33,531 nucleotides of DNA. Source: an uncultured Lachnospiraceae bacterium (lineage in GTDB: Bacteria; Bacillota; Clostridia; Lachnospirales; Lachnospiraceae). The position numbers were made by a program, and so were the translations under genes. Location: NCBI GenBank assembly GCA_947588855.1, contig CANQBN010000005.1:1-33531 (forward strand). Direction: 5' to 3'. Below, in pieces: positions 648 to 33,155 of the stretch; the first letter of the stretch is position 1, and each line of letters begins with the position of its first letter. The notes beneath the pieces were generated by a model. The model saw only the letters and a program-made list of their open reading frames with translations, was not told where the DNA came from and did not search any database.

Positions 648-910
648 AGCCAATCTCTCCTTTCTCTGTCTGCCTTCACCGCGCCCGGACAGAATCCTTG
701 TCTTCCGAAAATCCGCAGCTTATTGCTGTTCATGACATAGTTTACCACATATTTTTCAATTTTACCACTACCTGCAAAAAATAAAGTGGTGTTTCCGGAA
801 AAAGTGATGTATAATCTTCCAGAACACTGCGTTCTCAGAAATCCTGCGGTTCACATCCGTCGCGTCTGGCCTGTACCGGCCCAGCGGTTCGCCGAAGGAT
901 GACCCCTGCC

Positions 911-1042
911 ATGCCGTTTTATGTCGAGAAAGAATATCTTGACGTACGGTTTTATATCGAGAAAGAATATCTTGACGTACGGTTTTATATCGAGAAAGGA
1001 GACTTTGCCATGCAGTTTTCTATCGAAAAAGCCACCCCCGCG
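911..1042 (+). repeat. 33-bp tandem repeat, about 4 units, the last overlapping the start of the GNAT gene
   Basis: Units begin at 911 (ATGCCGTTTTATGTCGAGAAAGAATATCTTGAC), 944 and 977 (GTACGGTTTTATATCGAGAAAG...), and 1010 (ATGCAGTTTTCTATCGAAAAAG...). Confidence 0.9.
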
Positions 1043-1537
1043 GACTATCCTGTCTTTGCTGAAATCTCGCGTCAGGTCTGGCGGCTCTTAGACCACAAGG
1101 AATGGTTCGCCATGGACAATCCCGATTATACCTACCAGGTCCTTACCGGCGGCTGCGGCACCGGCTACAAGGCCGTGGCCGAGGATACCGGCGAAATCGC
1201 AGGCATCTTCCTGACGGAAGTGCCCAGCATGTCAAAAGAGAATCTGGGCCGGGACATCCATCTGCCGGAGACAGAGCTTCCAAAAGTGGCCCACATGGAT
1301 ACCGCCGCCGTCCTCCCAAAGTACCGGGGACATCACCTGCAGTATCTCCTCATGCAGGCGGCAGAGCAGGACTTGCAGGATCAGGGATACCGCTATCTGA
1401 TGTGTACCATTCACCCGGAAAATCACGCCAGTCTGAACACTGCCCTGCGGCAGGGATACCGAATCATGGCCGAAAAAGAGAAATACGGCGGCTACCGGCG
1501 GGCGATCCTTTTGAAGGAGCTTACTCCCTCCACTTAA
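1010..1537 (+). CDS. GNAT family N-acetyltransferase
   Basis: MQFSIEKATPADYPVFAEISRQVW...AAVLPKYRGHHLQYLLMQAAEQ...TIHPENHASLNTALRQGYRI. ATG at 1010 follows AAAGGAG; the longer ORF start at 899 only reads through the tandem repeat. Confidence 0.8.
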   Translation: MQFSIEKATPADYPVFAEISRQVWRLLDHKEWFAMDNPDYTYQVLTGGCGTGYKAVAEDTGEIAGIFLTEVPSMSKENLGRDIHLPETELPKVAHMDTAAVLPKYRGHHLQYLLMQAAEQDLQDQGYRYLMCTIHPENHASLNTALRQGYRIMAEKEKYGGYRRAILLKELTPST

Positions 1538-9868: not shown

Positions 9869-11290
9869 TTACTTCTGGAACACATTGTAATCGCACACCG
9901 CGTCTTCGAGAATCTCGTCCAGATACATGCTCTGGATATCCGTTCTGCTATATTCCTTCCACATCTGCCTTGCGGGCGCAGCCTCTGCCCACTCGGCTAT
10001 CTCCACTGCTTTTCCGGCTATGGAGTAACTGTTCATATAAGCATAATACTCTGCCATCATCCGCCGGTCTTCTTCCGTCAGATCTTTACCGGCCAAATTA
10101 CGATATGCTTTTTCAAAATATATACTCTGAAGGAAAGAATCTGCGTATTCCGCAAAATCCTGAAGATTCATATCCGGATCATCTTTCCTCTGCGCCCAGG
10201 CAGTTACATCCACAATCTCCGTATGATAATCAAAGGTATCCTCACCGAAATACTTCAATACGCCATACTGACACGGTGAGATTGCCAGGGAACTCGTAGT
10301 GATTTCCTCAATATCATAAAGCTCCGATTCTCGATAATGCTGAACATGGAGGTGTCCGCTTAAAAACAGTCTCACATCCCAATCTGTCAGCACCTGCTCC
10401 AGCTGCTCGGAATGCTCAATCATACAGTCATTCTGATAGATCCGGCTTTCATCCAAAAGATTATGATGTGCCACGGCAATAACATTACGGTCCTCATTCC
10501 AGGCTGTTTCCAGCCACGTTTCCAACCATTCATACGTTCCCGTACGGATCATACCTCCGACCTTTGCGCCATTCTCATACTGACAGCTGTCCAGCATAAA
10601 TACCCATGTACCGTCAGGCAGCTCATAAACATAGCTTAACGACACAGGATCTCTGCTTATCGCTTCCTCATAACCATATGCTCCATATACTTTTTCAAAC
10701 AACTCCGGACTGGTCGGTTCCGCAGGCATAGTCAAAGCGTCCAGATATTTGGCAGCTTTAGAGTTATTAATATCGTGATTGCCAGGAATAACCATTACAT
10801 CAATACCTGCCCGCTCTACCCGCTCCAGTTTCTGCGCCAAAGCCTCATGGCTGAACAGTTCTCCTTCCAGAGATAGATCCCCAGCCAGTATCAGGGCCTG
10901 CGGATTTCTCTCGATCACCGCATCCAGAAAGGCATCCGTAATCTCCCAGATATAGGAAACCACCTTGCCGTCTCCGGATTCGTTCATAGCATCAAACGCG
11001 ATTCCAAAGTCTGTCAGTTCTTTGGCAAGATAATGGATATCTGAAGCAATAATAATCTCCGGGTTGCTGATATCCTGTTCCTCATCCTGAAGCTCCAGAG
11101 ATTCAATAGTCATATCCTCCGGACTGAAATTCCGGATTTCCGGTCCTGACTGGGTTTCCTCGTCAATCCCTTCATTCACCTGTGTAACTTTCGGTCCTGC
11201 TGCTGATTCCGCCTCCGGTTGATAGTACGCGGAACAACCGACAAGCATCGCAGCTGCCATCAGCAGGAGCGCCGTTGCTCTCTTTTTCAT
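9869..11290 (-). CDS. Metallophosphoesterase lipoprotein
   Basis: MKKRATALLLMAAAMLVGCSAYYQ (lipobox LVGC); metallophosphoesterase motifs IASDIHYL, LAGDLSLEGE, IPGNHDINN, VAHHNLLD, LSGHLHVQHY. Confidence 0.9.
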   Translation of the reverse strand: MKKRATALLLMAAAMLVGCSAYYQPEAESAAGPKVTQVNEGIDEETQSGPEIRNFSPEDMTIESLELQDEEQDISNPEIIIASDIHYLAKELTDFGIAFDAMNESGDGKVVSYIWEITDAFLDAVIERNPQALILAGDLSLEGELFSHEALAQKLERVERAGIDVMVIPGNHDINNSKAAKYLDALTMPAEPTSPELFEKVYGAYGYEEAISRDPVSLSYVYELPDGTWVFMLDSCQYENGAKVGGMIRTGTYEWLETWLETAWNEDRNVIAVAHHNLLDESRIYQNDCMIEHSEQLEQVLTDWDVRLFLSGHLHVQHYRESELYDIEEITTSSLAISPCQYGVLKYFGEDTFDYHTEIVDVTAWAQRKDDPDMNLQDFAEYADSFLQSIYFEKAYRNLAGKDLTEEDRRMMAEYYAYMNSYSIAGKAVEIAEWAEAAPARQMWKEYSRTDIQSMYLDEILEDAVCDYNVFQK

Positions 11291-11303
11291 ATCAGCCTGC
11301 CTC

Positions 11304-12965
11304 TTAATCATTTACTTTCACAACGTTCCAAATATCTTCCGACTCTAATCCCAGCTTCCAGCAGCCCACTCCTGCCAACTCATATTGATCGATCAGCTGC
11401 ATCTTAAGCTCCAGGGAGCGCTCATCCTCCAACCAGATCTGACTGACAGAATCCTCACTTCGAAGTTCTCCATAATACTGCCCCAGTTCCTCCTGCCAGA
11501 ACAGTTCCACCTGATTTTCTTCTACCCAATCGGCGGCAGCGGCAAGCCCCAATGCGGACGATGTCGTCTGACCGTTCTTTTCCGTCCACACTCTGGTATA
11601 AAACGGAACCGCATTGATCACCTTCCCGGCAGGTACCTCATCCAGCGTGCGCTGGATTCCTCTCTCTACATACGGAAGAGACGCAACCGACCCCGCCTCG
11701 CCTCCGGCGTAATGCTCATCATATCCCATAATAATTACATAATCAGCCACGCGCCCCTGCTCGGCCCGATTATAATTCGCCGTGTAATCAGACGGAACAT
11801 AATTGTCAACCGACAGAATAATTCCGTTCTTCCGACAGTCAACCGACAATTCCCGGATGAACTGAACATAATGAGGCCTCGCCTCCGGCGATATACTTTC
11901 TATATCCAGATTGATTCCGTCAATCCCACAGGCCATCACATCTTCCATCAGACTGGCAATCAGCGCCCGCCTTACGGACGTCTGTGAAAATAAAATTTCG
12001 GAATTCACATCCTCTCCTTTGTTAAAATTATCAAGCACAGCCCACACCTGCATGCCCATCTCATGAGCTCTGGCCACATATTCCGGATCGGCATAAGATT
12101 TATAATGACCGTCATTATCCGTGAGCATAAACCAGGTAGGAGCAATGACGTTCACACCACTAGTATCTGCTATCAACGTCTCCAGCTTTTCATTATCGCG
12201 TTCATCAAAAATCTGGTGCCAAACCAGGCACACTCTCTGTTCAAGAGAAATATTTGAATATTCCGGTTCAACAAAACTGCTGGTCCTGGATTCCTGGGTA
12301 ATCCCTGTTATATGCCTGTTCTGCACATATCCGATATAACCGTTCTCCGTACGTACTTTAGACCACTCTTCCATCGCGTCCAGTATCCGGAAACCGGCTC
12401 CCTTTCCCACTGTCGTCATCACAGGGCTCTTGATTCCTCCCAGAACACGTACATCAGTCTTCCCGTCCGCAAATCCAATCGTCTCTTCGTCCCATAGATC
12501 ATCTATATATATGCGGTTATACCCTCCGTCAGAAAATATCTGACTGCAAATATCCGTATAGTTGGATACCACCCCTACAGACAGATACACTCCGTCTTCC
12601 TCTGCCAGAAGCATCGGGGCGCCGGAATTTCCGACAGTTCTCTTATCCGCATAGACAACCGCATCCGGCAGCGTATATACAAGCATCTTTTCTACATCAT
12701 CCCAGTAAAACTTCTCGTTCAGACGCTCATTCACCCAGTCAATCGGCAGATAAATCTGCCCGTCCCTGGCAATGGCCCTGGGTTCCATAAGTTCATTATT
12801 ATAAAAAATTGCCGTCTCTTCCCCGCTGAGATTCAGTTCTCCTGCCATATCCGCCTGTTCTCTGGTTGGAATATACTGTCCCAGCCACCGATACCCGATT
12901 ACGCCTCCCAATATCAATACCAGCAGCGCAACGACAACAACAACCGGTATCCAAGTTCGTTTCAA
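11304..12965 (-). CDS. Membrane-anchored glycosyl hydrolase family 18 protein with copper-amine-oxidase-like and SH3-like N-terminal regions
   Basis: N-terminal TM; FYNNELMEPRAIARDGQIYLPIDWVNERLNEKFYWDD; SH3-like KGAGFRILDAMEEWSKVRTENGYIGYVQNRHI; GH18 catalytic motif DGINLDIESIS. Confidence 0.85.
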   Translation of the reverse strand: MKRTWIPVVVVVALLVLILGGVIGYRWLGQYIPTREQADMAGELNLSGEETAIFYNNELMEPRAIARDGQIYLPIDWVNERLNEKFYWDDVEKMLVYTLPDAVVYADKRTVGNSGAPMLLAEEDGVYLSVGVVSNYTDICSQIFSDGGYNRIYIDDLWDEETIGFADGKTDVRVLGGIKSPVMTTVGKGAGFRILDAMEEWSKVRTENGYIGYVQNRHITGITQESRTSSFVEPEYSNISLEQRVCLVWHQIFDERDNEKLETLIADTSGVNVIAPTWFMLTDNDGHYKSYADPEYVARAHEMGMQVWAVLDNFNKGEDVNSEILFSQTSVRRALIASLMEDVMACGIDGINLDIESISPEARPHYVQFIRELSVDCRKNGIILSVDNYVPSDYTANYNRAEQGRVADYVIIMGYDEHYAGGEAGSVASLPYVERGIQRTLDEVPAGKVINAVPFYTRVWTEKNGQTTSSALGLAAAADWVEENQVELFWQEELGQYYGELRSEDSVSQIWLEDERSLELKMQLIDQYELAGVGCWKLGLESEDIWNVVKVND

Positions 12966-13126: not shown

Positions 13127-13372
13127 TCATCGATTGTATACCCGGTCAAACCGTATTTCCTGAAGATTTCCTTCTGCCGCGCCGACATAATCGCACATAT
13201 AGAAAGAACCGTCTTCATTAACCTGGAAGATTTTCTCCCAATCTTCTTCCGTGGGAATCTCCCCATCGATATAAACCGGTATCCCTCTGGCCTCATAACG
13301 GCGGAGGCCGTCCACAAATTGTTTCTGCTCTCTATGTAGGTTTCCTTTCATAATATATACCTGCTCTTTCAT
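13127..13372 (-). CDS. Small protein of unknown function
   Basis: MKEQVYIMKGNLHREQKQFVDGLRRYEARGIPVYIDGEIPTEEDWEKIFQVNEDGSFYMCDYVGAAEGNLQEIRFDRVYNR. Protein-like composition; start uncertain (13423, 13372 or 13351). Confidence 0.6.
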   Translation of the reverse strand: MKEQVYIMKGNLHREQKQFVDGLRRYEARGIPVYIDGEIPTEEDWEKIFQVNEDGSFYMCDYVGAAEGNLQEIRFDRVYNR

Positions 13373-13435: not shown

Positions 13436-14038
13436 TTACAGAATAGTTCTCATAAACTCCATCACCGGTTCATTGACAGTAAAGGCATCTACTGAAAAAG
13501 GAATCCGTCTCACGGTCGGTCTGCGTCTTTTATTCCACCTTAACCTGGATTCTTCGCTGCCAAAGGCAGCAAGACATAGCCAGCCATTTCTCACGCTCCA
13601 CTCTTCCCATGATTCCGGTTTCCAAAATGCCCCATCCTGCCATTCTGTAAAAGAAACTGTCAAAAACACTCTATGGCAGCGCAGCAGTTCTTCACAGACC
13701 GTCTCCTTCAGGGTTCCGAAATCGATCAGTATCTCTTCATAATCCATATGAAGACAATCCGCAAGAACGCTGCTTGTGGAGTTCGGATAAAAATCCACGT
13801 TCAGTATCCGATACCGGCTCTCCACCGCCGTAAGTCCAGTGCAGACGCTGCCGATTCGAACGAAATCGCCATGATTATTCCATTCAAGAATCGCCGTCTT
13901 TCGTCCGCATCCGCTGCAAAGGTAATTCGCCGCCAACACCAGGAAATGCGTTGTTCCTGTGCTCCGGCCGGCTCCCGCCGCTCCGATAATCCGTTGTTTT
14001 ACGACCGCTTGCTCCATCTTTTTTTGAAACAATTCCAT
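13436..14038 (-). CDS. Degenerate ParA/CpaE-like P-loop protein of unknown function
   Basis: RIIGAAGAGRSTGTTHFLVLAANYLCSGCGRKTAILEWNNHGDFVR (deviant P-loop) and EEILIDFGT (Walker B-like). ATG at 14038 overlaps the upstream kinase gene by 40 nt. Confidence 0.6.
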   Translation of the reverse strand: MELFQKKMEQAVVKQRIIGAAGAGRSTGTTHFLVLAANYLCSGCGRKTAILEWNNHGDFVRIGSVCTGLTAVESRYRILNVDFYPNSTSSVLADCLHMDYEEILIDFGTLKETVCEELLRCHRVFLTVSFTEWQDGAFWKPESWEEWSVRNGWLCLAAFGSEESRLRWNKRRRPTVRRIPFSVDAFTVNEPVMEFMRTIL

Positions 14039-15378
14039 AACCTGCCCCTCTTCTGCTGCTGGCACAAATTCAGCTGTTTTGAAACAAGTTCTCCGTAAAA
14101 GGAGCTTGCCTCTTCACCGGGCCGGAATGGATTTTCAAACATCGGCGCCCGATAGCTCCGGCCGGCCGCGCCGCCTCCCTCCTTGCGTTTCAACGCGCCG
14201 GGAAGCATAAAATTATAAAGAATGCAAAAATCTTCCTCAATTTGAGTCTGCTTTGCCCACCATTTTCCCTCCTTAACAAGCCAGACAGATGAAATCTCTC
14301 CTGCCGTTTTCTCAAGAGCAGATATGTCCGTTCCGTAATCCCGCACAATAACCGGATACCGGCAGGCCTTCAGGCTGACAGCCTGTCCATAGAGGGGACG
14401 CATGGGCAGTCCAAATATGGTATAAATCCCGTAAGAATCCGGACAAATATCCAAATTAATGGCCATAGTCCGCACGTCGTTGGAATGATTGGCTTCTTCG
14501 TAAAGAGTCAGATAGCCGCTCTGATTCAAAAAAACTGACAAACCGACTGCAAGATGAGTGACACCCACGCCGTGGCGCGTTCCGGCAAGGGCAATGATAA
14601 GAGGTGGTGATTGCGATTGACTTATACACTCTGTATTGGAACAAAGCCGCTGCAGCTCTTCCCTGAGTTCCAAGGCAGAGGCATACCGCTCTTCTCCATG
14701 TTGACGGAGACACTTCCGGATAACCGCCGATAATCTTCCAAATTCATCAGGTACTGGAACCTCCTGTTCTGACCGTCCTGTTAACAGATAACGCATAACA
14801 GCGCCAATTTGATATATATCTGTGTACACACCCAACTGCCCTCTGTGCCGCTGCTCCGGGGCAATATATCCTGGTGTTCCATACCGGCTGGACGCTTCAT
14901 TGGATCCCGTTTCTGTATCTGAATGGTCAAAATCCAGAAGCTTCACCTGTCCATGACAGACGATAAGATTTCTTGGCTGTAAATCCAGATATAATATGGG
15001 AATTTCTTCTGCTGAATGCAGATAATGGATCAGGTCACATATTTGAATGCCGTACTGAATAGCTGTTTCCTGATTCAGAGGACCCCGCTTATTCACAAGG
15101 TCGTAGAGAGAGTCTCCTTCCAGATACTCTTCAATGAGATAACTATACTGCGAATCGTCAAAAACATCATACACAATGGGAATTCCCGGGTGTCTAAGTC
15201 TCTTAAGCAGCAACGCTTCCTTCAGAAACTGCTCATAATCAGACGCTGCTTTAGGGACCTTCTTAATTGCCCTGTACTCCTTAAGCTCCACATGAAGCGC
15301 GAGATACACGGTTCCGCTTCTTCCCCGGCCCAATGCGCGTATTAACTGGTATTTTCCATACAGAATGGTGTCCTTAAT
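13999..15378 (-). CDS. Atypical Ser/Thr protein kinase fused to a degenerate P-loop (ParA/CpaE-like) domain
   Basis: IKDTILYGKYQLIRALGRGRSGTVYLA (G-loop), YRAIKKV, LDLQPRNLI, LLDFDHS, GTPGYIAPEQ, then IALAGTRHGVGVTHLAVGLSVFLNQSGYLTLYEEANHSNDVR. The ORF track starts at an internal TTG (15333). The RBS and kinase N-lobe put the start near 15378 (ATT) or 15381 (CTG). Confidence 0.8.
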   Translation of the reverse strand: MKDTILYGKYQLIRALGRGRSGTVYLALHVELKEYRAIKKVPKAASDYEQFLKEALLLKRLRHPGIPIVYDVFDDSQYSYLIEEYLEGDSLYDLVNKRGPLNQETAIQYGIQICDLIHYLHSAEEIPILYLDLQPRNLIVCHGQVKLLDFDHSDTETGSNEASSRYGTPGYIAPEQRHRGQLGVYTDIYQIGAVMRYLLTGRSEQEVPVPDEFGRLSAVIRKCLRQHGEERYASALELREELQRLCSNTECISQSQSPPLIIALAGTRHGVGVTHLAVGLSVFLNQSGYLTLYEEANHSNDVRTMAINLDICPDSYGIYTIFGLPMRPLYGQAVSLKACRYPVIVRDYGTDISALEKTAGEISSVWLVKEGKWWAKQTQIEEDFCILYNFMLPGALKRKEGGGAAGRSYRAPMFENPFRPGEEASSFYGELVSKQLNLCQQQKRGRLWNCFKKRWSKRS

Positions 15379-15504
15379 CAGTCACCTCCTTCTTCCAATA
15401 CCACCTCTTATGATTCATTCTAATATATTCAAAGGATTTTCGCAACTCACAAAACGAAAAATTCCATAAAATTTTTATAAAAAAAATTACATAGTAATTG
15501 ATAT

Positions 15505-15572: not shown

Positions 15573-16301
15573 ATGAAAATAGAGCGTATCAACGAAAATC
15601 AGATTCGGTGCACACTCACCAGTTTTGACCTGAGCGTGCGGAATCTTAATTTACGGGAACTGGCTTACGGAAGTGAAAAGGCCCGCAATCTGTTCCGGGA
15701 GATGATTCAGAAGGCTTCCAACGAAGTGGGGTTTGAGGCCGAGGATATTCCTCTGATGGTAGAAGCGATCCCTCTGTCTAATGAAAGCGTCATGCTGGTT
15801 ATCACCAAGATTGAAGATCCGGAAGAACTGGATACCCGTTTTTCCAAGTTCTCTCCTTCCGGTGATGAAGATTCGGATATTTTGTCAGAACTGGCCAGCG
15901 AACTTCTAGAGGGAGCGGATGGACTGGCGAAGCTTTTGGGCATTTCTGCCGCGGATGAATCCGAGACGGCTGATAATACAGACCCTTCTGATTTAGACAC
16001 CGCCAAATCTGCGGTCAGAGTTTACCTGTTTGACGGCCTTGACCGTGTATCGGAAGCCGCGCGCGCCTGCGGCAATCTGTATTCAGGAGTCAACACACTG
16101 TATAAAAAACCGGACACACACCAGTACTATCTGGTACTGAAGGCTGAGGGAAGCGACGACCTGGCCTTCAGCCGCACCTGCAACATTCTGGCAGAGTACG
16201 GCAGCAAACTGAAGCACGAATACGCCAGCGAAGCCTACTACGATGAACACTATGAAGCGGTTTGTCGGGATAAAGCTCTTCAGGTAATGAAAGATATATA
16301 A
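15573..16301 (+). CDS. mecA: Adaptor protein MecA
   Basis: MKIERINENQIRCTLTSFDLSVRNLNLRELAYGSEKARNLFREMIQKASNEVGFE; acidic linker; C-terminal domain with the LFDGLDRVSEAAR and LYKKPDTHQYYLVL motifs. Confidence 0.92.
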   Translation: MKIERINENQIRCTLTSFDLSVRNLNLRELAYGSEKARNLFREMIQKASNEVGFEAEDIPLMVEAIPLSNESVMLVITKIEDPEELDTRFSKFSPSGDEDSDILSELASELLEGADGLAKLLGISAADESETADNTDPSDLDTAKSAVRVYLFDGLDRVSEAARACGNLYSGVNTLYKKPDTHQYYLVLKAEGSDDLAFSRTCNILAEYGSKLKHEYASEAYYDEHYEAVCRDKALQVMKDI

Positions 16302-17021: not shown

Positions 17022-17064
17022 ATTTGTCTGTCACAGCGTCTTATCCGTGAACCAGACAAATGCC
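17019..17064. promoter_or_regulatory. 12-bp perfect inverted repeat in the leader of the peptidase C26 gene
   Basis: GGCATTTGTCTG (17019-17030) and CAGACAAATGCC (17053-17064), 22-nt spacer. Confidence 0.7.
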
Positions 17065-17092
17065 AAAGGATATAAGGGAGTGCATACTTATT

Positions 17093-17842
17093 ATGAAAAA
17101 ACCTCTAATCGGGCTGACGCCCTCTCATAATATTGATACAGATGAAATTCATATGGGACCTTTGTATCCCAGGGCCATACGGATGGCAGGTGGAATTCCC
17201 ATCATTCTTCCGCTTGAACCGGACAGCGGTGAACTCCGGCAAACGGTTGAAGGACTGGACGGCATTCTCTTCACCGGCGGGCCGGACCCACACCCATTTC
17301 TGTTCGGCGAGGAAACCCTGTCGGGATGTGGGGAAATCTCTGTCAAACGTGATGCCATGGAAACAGAACTGCTGGAGCTCGCCATTGAATACGAAAAACC
17401 TGTTCTGGGCATATGCCGCGGTATTCAAATTATTAACGTGGGTCTGGGCGGAGACATCTATCAGGACCTTTATTCCCAGACAGAGCGCAGTATGCCCATC
17501 GCCCATAAGCAGCCGCCTCTTTGTTACGGTCCCTCTCATACGGTAACCGTAACCCCCGGATCCATGCTGGCAGACATCTGCCGGTCCGCGCTTTGCAGCA
17601 GCTCATCCGCTTCACCTCAGATGTTCCTTAAAGTTAACAGTTCCCATCACCAGGCTGTCCGGCGTCTTGCCCCGGGGCTTTCGGTCTGCGCCACAGCCCC
17701 CGACGGCATCATAGAGGGATTGGAAATGGAAGGTTATCCTTTCCTGCTGGGTGTCCAATGGCACCCTGAATACCTGTGGAAAAATGATCCCACTGCCGCC
17801 GCCATATTCAAAGCTTTCGTAGCTGCCTGCCGCTCAAAATAA
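17093..17842 (+). CDS. Gamma-glutamyl-gamma-aminobutyrate hydrolase family protein (peptidase C26), paralogue 1
   Basis: KKPLIGLTPSHN...GILFTGGPDPHPFLFGEE...PVLGICRGIQIINVGLGGDIYQDL...NSSHHQAVRRLAPGL...GVQWHPEYLW. Confidence 0.9.
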   Translation: MKKPLIGLTPSHNIDTDEIHMGPLYPRAIRMAGGIPIILPLEPDSGELRQTVEGLDGILFTGGPDPHPFLFGEETLSGCGEISVKRDAMETELLELAIEYEKPVLGICRGIQIINVGLGGDIYQDLYSQTERSMPIAHKQPPLCYGPSHTVTVTPGSMLADICRSALCSSSSASPQMFLKVNSSHHQAVRRLAPGLSVCATAPDGIIEGLEMEGYPFLLGVQWHPEYLWKNDPTAAAIFKAFVAACRSK

Positions 17843-22687: not shown

Positions 22688-23521
22688 TCACTCGTTCCTG
22701 TAGAACCGTACAGCCTGCCCCGCCAGAACAAAACGATTATTGTGATCGGCACCCGTACAGGTAGACAACAGAACCAACGGCGCTTTCTCCGCATGTTCCA
22801 CGGCAGGGATCTCATACCAGGAAAAGCTCTTCATCCGTTCAAGATACTGCCTTCTCTCATTCTCATCCGAAAATGCCGCCGGATAATATTCTTCCCTGGC
22901 CGCCACGTTTCCGGCAGCAAAGATCCGGCACCGATACACGCCGTCCGGAGTATATATGTCAAAATACGGGAAACGATCCAGATATGTTTTCTCACGGTAC
23001 TTCTTCAGCAGGCCGAACATGGTCCCATTCTTCATATTATGACCATATATAATCGTATTTTCATCCGTCATCATACCTTTGTTTCTGGCGTCCTGAAAAA
23101 TGCTTCCGGCTATATTGCGGGTATTACCGAACGTATGATTAAGGTAGTAATCATTATCATCCCCCTGTACCACGGGATAACTGATCTCCTGACCTGGGAA
23201 ATCGATCCAGGCCACAACATCATCGTTAACTTCAGACAGAGCATCGAAATCTATGGAAAGCGCTGGCGGAAAAAGCCCGTTCGAGTCAGACGACTCCTGC
23301 CCGCCGGGTTCTGTATCCGTCCGCTGCGCCCCTTCTTTGAAAATATCCTGTCTCACACAAACAGTATCGCGGACAAGCGCTTCATATTCTTCTTTGCCTT
23401 CCCGGTAAGCACGCCAATAGGAAATCAGCGTTCCTGCAGAAAGCAGGAAAAGAACTGCACAAAACAAGAACAACACTTTGATCAAAAAACGTTTTTTCAT
23501 AATTCTATAGTTCATTTCCAT
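22688..23521 (-). CDS. srtB: Class B sortase
   Basis: N-terminal TM; DVVAWIDFPGQEISYPVVQGDDNDYYLNHTF; IIYGHNMKNGTMFGLL; LLSTCTGADHNNRFVLAGQ (catalytic His, Cys, Arg). Confidence 0.92.
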   Translation of the reverse strand: MEMNYRIMKKRFLIKVLFLFCAVLFLLSAGTLISYWRAYREGKEEYEALVRDTVCVRQDIFKEGAQRTDTEPGGQESSDSNGLFPPALSIDFDALSEVNDDVVAWIDFPGQEISYPVVQGDDNDYYLNHTFGNTRNIAGSIFQDARNKGMMTDENTIIYGHNMKNGTMFGLLKKYREKTYLDRFPYFDIYTPDGVYRCRIFAAGNVAAREEYYPAAFSDENERRQYLERMKSFSWYEIPAVEHAEKAPLVLLSTCTGADHNNRFVLAGQAVRFYRNE

Positions 23522-30948: not shown

Positions 30949-32202
30949 ATGTTCTTTAATCCAAATTTTGGTTGTAATAACATGGGGCCCATAGACAACT
31001 GTTACGAAAACGGCGCCGGCTGTTCTATGAATTGCTGCCCGCCGCCCAATCCTCCCGGCTGCTGCCACGGACCTCAAAGACCGATATCTCCGGGAGTACC
31101 TGTTCCTTCAGAGAATCAGGGACCGGCCGGATCAACAGGACCTACAGGACCTCAGGGGCCAATGGGTCCGCAAGGACCGCAGGGACTGCAGGGACCGCAG
31201 GGACCTCAGGGACTTCCCGGAGCAACCGGAGCCGCCGGTCCTCAAGGACCTGCCGGTCCTGCCGGAGTAACGGGGCCTGCTGCCATCGTAACGGCCGGCA
31301 CCGTGATTACCGGCGCTCCCGGAACTGATGCAGCCGTCACTAACGTAGGCACCGCACAGGCGGCCATCTTGAACTTCACCATCCCCGCCGGACCTACAGG
31401 ACCTCAGGGCCCCCAGGGAGCACAGGGACCGCAAGGCACAGCCGGAGCGGTCGGCGCAGTCGGACCGCAGGGACCTGCCGGTCCTATCGGGCCCACCGGA
31501 CCTGCGGGACCGCAGGGTGCTGCCGGGGCGCAGGGAATCGCAGGTGCAACCGGACCTCAGGGACCCGTTGGCCCCCAGGGCGCAACCGGGCCTCAAGGGC
31601 CTGTTGGACCGCAGGGTGTTACCGGACCTCAGGGTGTTACCGGACCTCAGGGACCGATGGGGCCGGCCGGAACGCCTGCGACCATCACAGTCAATCCGGT
31701 GGTTGTGGGACCTGCCGGCTCCGCGCCTTCCGTCGCCTCTTCCGGCACCGGAAGCAATGTAACCCTCACTTTCACACTGCCTGCTGCCCCGGAACCCAAC
31801 GCCCTGACAGCAGTCAATGCGGCGGCCACACCGGGAACCAACGGAACCGCCCTTGCCCTGACCGCCAATCAAGCCTCCACAGGTACAGCCGTCACTCACA
31901 CCCCGGGAAGTTCTGAAATTACACTGACAGAGCCGGGCACCTACGAGATTTCCTACAATACCACGGCTTCCATTCCTACCGGAACGGTTCCCGGCACTGT
32001 AAGCGCTTATCTTGCCAGCGGCGGCGCCGCCATCCCCGGCACTACTGTCAGCAGCACCGTATCCACTGCCGCCGATACGGCAGCACTGGCAGCCACTACC
32101 ATCGTAACAGTACCCGACGGCACCGCTGCCATTACTCTGGTGCCCAACAGCGCCGACACTACCTTCACCAACACGGCAGTTACCGTGCGCCGGATTGCCT
32201 GA
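30949..32202 (+). CDS. Collagen-like triple-helix repeat protein (BclA-like architecture)
   Basis: Cys-rich N-terminus, 18 Gly-X-Y triplets (31120-31281), 36-aa interruption, 32 Gly-X-Y triplets (31390-31677), then a beta-rich C-terminal region ([56 protein letters not shown]...). Confidence 0.92.
31120..31677 (+). repeat. Gly-X-Y coding repeat region, two blocks separated by a non-collagen interruption
   Basis: Repeated GGACCNCAGGGA-type 9-mers; includes an exact 18-bp tandem duplication GGTGTTACCGGACCTCAG at 31615-31650. Confidence 0.9.
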
Positions 32203-32438: not shown

Positions 32439-33155
32439 TCAGCTTTCCTTCTGGCAGGCTTCAATCAGCCCCGCAAACAAAGGACGCATACTGTCCTCCA
32501 CCGCAAACATGGCCTCCGGATGCCACTGGACGCCAAGGCCGTAAGGATAATCCTCAAGCTCCACGCCCTCCACGATGCCGTCCTCCGCATGAGCTGTAAT
32601 CACAAGCCCTCTGCCCAACTCCTTCACGCTCTGATGATGAAAGCTGTTGGTCCACGCCGTATCTCCGAACATCTCATGAATGCGGCTTTCTTTTTCAATA
32701 TGCACCAGATGGCTGTAATCGCCGCTGTCAGTCGCCTGAAAGTGCTTCATCACGTCCCCGCAAAGAGTTACGTCCTGGTACAAAGTGCCGCCGCAGGCCA
32801 CATTCAGCACCTGATGTCCCCGGCAGATCGCCAGGAACGGCTTTTTTGCAGCGATTACTTTCCGCATAAGAGGAATCTGGCACCGGTCCAGCACCAGGCT
32901 GGTATCGCTCAGAAGCCTGTGGGGATTCTCTCCGTAAAAGCTTGGAGATATGTCTACTCCGCCGGAGAAGAGGAAACCGTCCATTTTCTCCACATACGCG
33001 TCCAGCAAGGTCTCATCGTCAGTGACAGGAATCAGAGCGGGAAGTCCTCCCGTCTTTATAATCGCGTCAACGTACGTATCGTTGATCACATGGGTCACGC
33101 CGTTTCCGTTGGGTCTCTTAAAATTAACCGTCGTAATTCCAATCTGGGGGATCAT
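32439..33155 (-). CDS. Gamma-glutamyl-gamma-aminobutyrate hydrolase family protein (peptidase C26), paralogue 2
   Basis: MIPQIGITTVNF...GFLFSGGVDISPSFYGENP...PFLAICRGHQVLNVACGGTLYQDV...NSFHHQSVKELGRGL...GVQWHPEAMFAVED. Confidence 0.9.
   Translation of the reverse strand: MIPQIGITTVNFKRPNGNGVTHVINDTYVDAIIKTGGLPALIPVTDDETLLDAYVEKMDGFLFSGGVDISPSFYGENPHRLLSDTSLVLDRCQIPLMRKVIAAKKPFLAICRGHQVLNVACGGTLYQDVTLCGDVMKHFQATDSGDYSHLVHIEKESRIHEMFGDTAWTNSFHHQSVKELGRGLVITAHAEDGIVEGVELEDYPYGLGVQWHPEAMFAVEDSMRPLFAGLIEACQKES

Follow-up and report, generated by a model that had tools for sequence, protein, structure and literature searches.

A Lachnospiraceae kinase fused to a degenerate TadZ/ParA-like domain, its stand-alone paralogue and an unusual translation start region

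In a contig from an uncultured Lachnospiraceae bacterium we found a Hanks-type kinase whose C-terminal domain and the protein encoded by the next gene are homologues with a ParA/MinD/TadZ fold. Our tentative reading, to which we give slightly less than an even chance, is that the pair forms a conserved signalling module of the Lachnospiraceae in which pseudo-ATPase domains would dimerise to place or gate an envelope-linked kinase under restricted translation. The window, that is, the whole stretch analysed, comprises 33,531 nucleotides (contig CANQBN010000005.1, assembly GCA_947588855.1) and comes from a MAG that is 94% complete with 5.45% contamination, is Lachnospiraceae-like and has a 'Hungatella sp.' MAG as its nearest named relative. 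A preliminary description had pointed by eye to an atypical kinase and an adjacent P-loop protein, and both open reading frames (ORFs) and all the motifs quoted for them are indeed present on the minus strand, the two genes overlapping by 40 nt (13999-14038) as it stated. The genes and domains of the locus are as follows.

15573-16301, plus strand: mecA, the divergent neighbour (Pfam MecA, 1.6e-65).
13999-15378, minus strand: kinase of the Hanks type with a TadZ/ParA-like pseudo-ATPase domain at its C-terminus (Pfam Pkinase, 3.9e-37).
14065-14610 (borders approximate), minus strand: degenerate P-loop domain at the kinase C-terminus (AGTRHGVGVTH ... RDYGT; alignment, and hhalign against the stand-alone family, E 2.4e-30).
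13436-14038, minus strand: stand-alone paralogous P-loop protein (AGAGRSTGTTH ... IDFGT; AlphaFold and Foldseek).
13127-13351, minus strand: small protein of about 74 amino acids, a conserved companion downstream of the P-loop gene (within 2.5 kb in 58/93 loci), with no Pfam family at the cut-off.
11304-12965, minus strand: membrane-anchored GH18 protein with an SH3 domain, a conserved downstream gene (Pfam GH18, 1.6e-19; SH3_3, 2e-7).
9869-11311, minus strand: calcineurin-like phosphoesterase with a lipoprotein-type signal, in the same operon direction.

Elsewhere, the window encodes a collagen-like protein with long Gly-Pro-Gln/Gly-X-Y repeats (30949-32202, plus strand) and an acetyltransferase-like ORF (899-1537, plus strand) with a near-perfect N-terminal tandem repeat (FYVEKEYLDVR FYIEKEYLDVR FYIEKGDFAMQ). 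By eye only, we also noted two paralogous class I glutamine-amidotransferase-like proteins (17060-17842, plus strand; 32439-33155, minus strand) and a sortase-like protein with an LSTCTG motif (22688-23521, minus strand).

Read from the ATT at 15376-15378 to its TAA stop, the kinase ORF has 459 residues. Its AlphaFold model (pLDDT 89.7) matched S. aureus PknB and others in Foldseek at E about 1e-16, and in an alignment of 85 homologues the VAIK lysine (K40), the alpha-C glutamate (E55), the catalytic aspartate (D133), the DFG aspartate (D150), the APE glutamate (E176) and D188 are all invariant, so that an active Ser/Thr kinase is predicted from its intact catalytic residues. The window kinase is nevertheless non-canonical in the way first described, having YLDLQPRN in place of the HRD loop and DFD in place of DFG while keeping the VAIK lysine, the catalytic aspartate, the asparagine and APE. 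Among the 85 homologues, 50 have K and 32 have Q at the HRD lysine position, 59 have G and 24 have D at the third DFG position, and the catalytic-loop asparagine, present in the window kinase, is a histidine in 23; judged from this alignment, the Lys-to-Gln, DFG-to-DFD and Asn-to-His exchanges are a property of the clade. The last of these is unusual given that the other catalytic residues are intact. Two homologous ORFs (L102/L157 and L130) contain an internal in-frame TAA and are possibly broken copies or assembly errors. A search for PASTA domains gave a score of 108.7 against a cut-off of 450, the best match being restricted to the kinase domain. The anti-phage kinases MAD6 and PD-T4-6 gave no match outside the kinase domain, and no defence context was seen at the locus; since the match is to the kinase domain only and the locus has a fixed core synteny, an anti-phage kinase was ruled out.

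The alignment by eye of the kinase C-terminus with the next protein proved to be real: profiles built from 62 stand-alone and 53 fused domains matched each other over 184 columns with a probability of 99.84 and an E value of 2.4e-30 (hhalign). The stand-alone protein, which starts with the ATG at 14038, is a single domain of 200 residues, and its AlphaFold model (pLDDT 92, pTM 0.88) has as its top Foldseek matches in the PDB the ParA-type partition proteins, TadZ of Eubacterium rectale (3fkq, E 3.5e-6, rank 2), BcsQ and MinD. Strands and helices follow the same order in the C-terminal part of the kinase model, and the structure comparison thus shows one fold in both regions rather than unrelated ones. 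A direct sequence search of the PDB with the kinase C-terminus returned nothing useful. A TadZ profile, made up mostly of proteins from Tad-like loci of the Lachnospiraceae themselves, matched the stand-alone profile with a probability of 98.9 (E 3.7e-17), and ParA proteins gave a weak sequence-profile match. The suspected CpaE/TadZ-style degeneracy extends to every copy, the P-loop lysine being missing in 62/62 stand-alone and 53/53 fused domains; its position is taken by V, T, A, C or L in the former and by T, V, A, C, N or S in the latter. The signature lysine is K in 15 of the 53 fused copies and is mostly lost in the stand-alone protein. G..G.T and DxG are invariant, and a histidine directly follows the P-loop threonine in 58/62 stand-alone and 50/53 fused domains.

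These conserved features bear on a competing view, which we regard as rather unlikely, that the pseudo-ATPase domains are not positioners but ligand sensors that bind, but do not hydrolyse, a nucleotide or nucleotide second messenger and turn the kinase they are attached to on or off. The retention of a nucleotide-binding fold with its invariant G..G.T and DxG would suit such sensors, and known CpaE proteins likewise lack the P-loop lysine (KGGVGSS), with the signature lysine replaced by arginine or histidine in some of them (PMC8513845). However, the motif is degenerate in both copies, the conserved histidine after the threonine has no known role, and ligand sensing alone does not explain why two paralogues are kept.

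The distribution of the two genes speaks to their joint action. Kinase matches, a count that includes PASTA kinases, were found in 259 of 397 genomes of the family, and 93 kinase loci of the Lachnospiraceae were drawn from this survey together with earlier loci. The C-terminal P-loop domain is present on 91 of these 93 kinases and the stand-alone partner gene lies next to the kinase in 80/93 loci, a conserved co-occurrence of the kind that a neighbourhood survey had been suggested to look for; mecA is divergent in 82/90 loci and a GH18 wall-protein gene lies nearby in 85/88. Beyond the Lachnospiraceae, other families of the order have the pair too. A tree built from 145 domains has a branch with 98% support that parts 76 kinase-attached domains from all 62 stand-alone ones, and seven further kinase-attached domains, each from a locus that lacks a partner gene, nest at several places within the stand-alone clade. 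Counted by locus, a partner-type domain sits on the kinase itself in nine of the 13 loci that have no separate partner gene (the tree shows seven such domains), a sequence pattern which suggests that the original domain of the kinase was repeatedly lost and the partner fused in its stead. Because a partner-type domain on the kinase thus usually replaces the partner gene where this is missing, the two P-loop proteins probably act together, and this is our main evidence for it. Of the tandem duplication and fusion first proposed for this locus, the common origin stands and the local event does not: the split between fused and stand-alone domains runs family-wide along the 98% branch and the pair extends into other families, which rules out a local tandem duplication and places the domain duplication, as far as the tree can date it, as an ancient one.

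The module that we favour would thus have two components, a Ser/Thr kinase with an attached TadZ/ParA-like domain that is catalytically dead, and a stand-alone paralogue of that domain. The two pseudo-ATPase domains would form a ParA/TadZ-like sandwich heterodimer, and the heterodimer would place the kinase at the envelope or switch it. Kinase targets would lie in the envelope, and the output would concern the co-transcribed wall and envelope proteins, namely the GH18/SH3 protein, the phosphoesterase lipoprotein and, in some lineages, a CpaB-like SAF protein. Translation initiation may keep the level of the kinase low or conditional, so that kinase number would be small. The signalling or positioning role suggested in the preliminary description is likewise putative.

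The SAF-domain (CpaB/RcpC-like) membrane protein gene directly follows the P-loop gene in 18 of the 93 loci (L048, L049, L050, L052, L054, L058, L062, L063, L069, L073, L111, L117, L118, L119, L125, L126, L128 and L136), with no pilus genes seen nearby; it is missing from most kinase loci, the window among them. One might therefore see in the module an accessory regulator of a Tad/Flp pilus whose borrowed TadZ-like and CpaB-like parts act in trans, which we consider improbable. Besides the SAF gene in these 18 loci, the TadZ-family homology of the P-loop domains (E 3.7e-17) would agree with such a role, as would the T2SSE/TadA-type ATPase present in 22 of 22 genomes tested, the four T2SSE/TadA-type loci that were read resembling Tad loci. 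However, these Tad-like loci lie elsewhere and have a TadZ-like gene of their own, the kinase loci show mecA, GH18 and phosphoesterase genes and no pilus genes around them, and most of them, the window included, do without the SAF gene.

Beyond what the preliminary description had covered, namely in addition to the envelope-gene context, the kinase gene lacks an ordinary start codon and has a predicted hairpin at the Shine-Dalgarno sequence (SD). No ATG, GTG or TTG is found at the natural 5' end of the window kinase gene, the frame being closed by a TGA (15382-15384) and continuing as CTG ATT AAG GAC ACC. We think it possible, if short of probable, that the kinase family is expressed from an initiation site at which canonical start codons are avoided, and that in the window's clade the SD is in addition hidden by a hairpin. 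The elements of this region are as follows.

15417-15445, minus strand: conserved promoter, with a -35 TTGCGA (15440-15445), a 17-nt spacer and a -10 TAGAAT (15417-15422) (genus alignment).
15396-15409, minus strand: conserved element AAGAGGTGGTATTG of the 5' leader, immediately downstream of the predicted transcription start (genus alignment).
15382-15391, minus strand: Shine-Dalgarno sequence AAGGAGGTGA, a full match to the anti-SD core.
15376-15378, minus strand: near-cognate ATT where a start codon would be expected, 6 nt downstream of GGAGG, with CTG (15379-15381) and TGA (15382-15384) before it in frame.
15362-15390, minus strand: predicted hairpin of AGGAGGTG (15383-15390) with CACC(A)TTCT (15362-15370), the ATT lying within its variable loop (folding predictions).

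A TTG at 15333 was rejected as the start, as it has no SD and would cut off the first strand of the kinase fold with its conserved LFGKY. A strong SD is present in 53 homologues, and in these the codon 6-8 nt past the SD core is ATA in 12, ATT in six, ATC in six, TTA in four, ACG in three, GTA in two and canonical in one. ATH thus stands at start spacing in 24/53, compared with 18/212 in four flanking codon bins (Fisher 3.5e-9, shared ancestry ignored). A more generous count that accepts any SD-spaced canonical codon makes a canonical start possible in 31 of 92 homologues, and 22/92 have no in-frame ATG, GTG or TTG before the glycine loop, some of them across more than 45 codons. Among the control genes, canonical starts were found in 61/61 mecA and 30/35 GH18 genes at an SD score of 15 or more, and in almost all PASTA kinases. 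The order does use ATT starts, since nearly all the infC copies scored, from the genus as well as from other families within the order (L159-L186), have an ATT start preceded by a conserved GGAGGTG SD. Where kinase homologues have an ATG, it is as far from the glycine loop as the SD-spaced site is, and in another family of the order most kinases start with ATG or TTG. The start-codon class changes at least seven times on the kinase tree, and close relatives differ (ATT in the window, ATC in L035, ATA in L003). Because ATH stands at start spacing in only nine of the 19 genomes of the window's genus, with GTC, ACC, GAG, GAA, GGA, GAT or GCG in the others, the initiating codon is not fixed there; half of the genus lacks so much as a near-cognate codon at this spacing. 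In Listeria, ATT and ATC starts are found in infC and rnhC, respectively, and ATA or ATT reduced the output of rsbW (PMC13068326); in S. aureus reporters, non-canonical starts yield about 10% of the output of ATG (PMC13009471). Kinase synthesis could accordingly be gated by initiation fidelity (the level of IF3), by translation of a leader ORF, or through initiation with next to no codon requirement.

The leader element of the window opens an upstream ORF of eight codons, GTG...TGA (15404 to 15378), whose TGA overlaps the ATT. Promoter, TAAGAG[AG]TG, SD and a CACC[ACG]TTCTG block are conserved in the genus alignment, and the few bases between them vary in length and sequence; the motif TAAGAG[AG]TG[AG]TATTG can still be made out at some distant kinase loci of the Lachnospiraceae. 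Most members of the genus have a short leader ORF, and between them these ORFs occupy each of the three possible frames with respect to the kinase. We therefore weighed whether the kinase starts instead at the leader ATG or GTG (AAGAG-RTG), close to the mRNA 5' end, directly if this is in frame and otherwise by coupling or recoding, the ATT being no start at all. Conservation of the RTG in most of the genus, its in-frame, stop-free run into the kinase in four of 19 genomes, and the overlap of TGA and ATT in the window would all fit; the RTG is, however, in frame 0, 1 or 2 by species with stops intervening, is replaced by GCG, ATT or ACC in other members, and wide-family homologues with an ATG have it at the SD-spaced site, and we hold a leader start to be quite unlikely. 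A programmed frameshift from the leader ORF was ruled out as a general solution, as the offset is 0, 1 or 2 between species and no common slippery site exists.

As to the hairpin, the 3' partner segment of the SD is CACCATTCT. Over a 55-nt start region the mean folding z is -1.78 in the genus and -1.60 in the clade, and the SD is predicted to be unpaired to a fraction of 0.17 and 0.23, respectively, compared with about 0.5 in the controls (mecA, PASTA kinase and infC starts), whose folding z is near 0 or above. In other Lachnospiraceae kinases an SD hairpin is not predicted and the values are like those of the controls. Pair counts gave 90.3% of cells paired, which 8 of 500 shuffles equalled or exceeded, with 43-85% for slid controls. 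Covariation is slight, with two pairs changed on both sides, and RNAalifold returned no consensus hairpin structure. A helix in which GAUGGU of the 5' element would pair with ACCAUU was given up, because the pairing of the SD with CACCNUUCU is better. Masking of the SD in the window's clade is plausible from these folding predictions; it is not proven, because the stretches that pair are under constraint as SD and as coding sequence as well.

That the two P-loop regions are unrelated, the kinase end being an ordinary linker and the similarity due to chance, is a negligible possibility: neither region alone matches Pfam, but the hhalign E value of 2.4e-30 and the common order of secondary structure in both models leave it almost no room.

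We found no description of the kinase/P-loop module in the open-licence literature; each of its parts is of a known kind, and the combination and the start region are variants not described there. If true, the proposal adds an undescribed envelope kinase pathway to a major gut family, with a former positioning ATPase and its paralogue as the building blocks, together with a large conserved case of non-canonical translation initiation beyond infC. ORF finding limited to ATG, GTG and TTG clips the window kinase within the glycine loop, and if annotation pipelines clip likewise, the kinase family is mis-annotated and the effect at its start hidden.

To conclude, the locus resembles several known systems and departs from each. 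With TadZ/CpaE (for example 3fkq) the window domains have in common the SIMIBI ParA/MinD fold, profile homology and, as in CpaE, the missing P-loop lysine. Unlike those proteins, they lie outside a Tad operon, are fused to or partnered with a kinase and carry a GxGVTH motif with a nearly invariant histidine, and the stand-alone protein, one domain of 200 amino acids, has no N-terminal receiver-like domain. The positioning ATPases ParA, MinD and BcsQ share the fold and are the top structural matches, whereas their KGGxGKT with both lysines is missing here, the P-loop lysine being gone in every copy of the window family. PknB/StkP-type PASTA Ser/Thr kinases have the same Hanks fold and catalytic residues, whereas the window kinase has a pseudo-ATPase domain as its C-terminus in place of PASTA domains, its start is putatively non-canonical, and its clade has the HRD Lys-to-Gln and DFG-to-DFD exchanges. 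Finally, infC (AUU/AUA), pcnB (AUU) and S. aureus ccpN (AUA) and cvfC1 (AUU) combine a strong SD with AUU, AUA or AUC at start spacing (PMC13009471), as the kinase gene does in the window and elsewhere in its family but in only nine of the 19 genomes of the window's genus; in contrast to infC-type genes, the kinase is a signalling gene, and its codon drifts between ATT, ATC, ATA, TTA and ACG among relatives and sometimes back to ATG.
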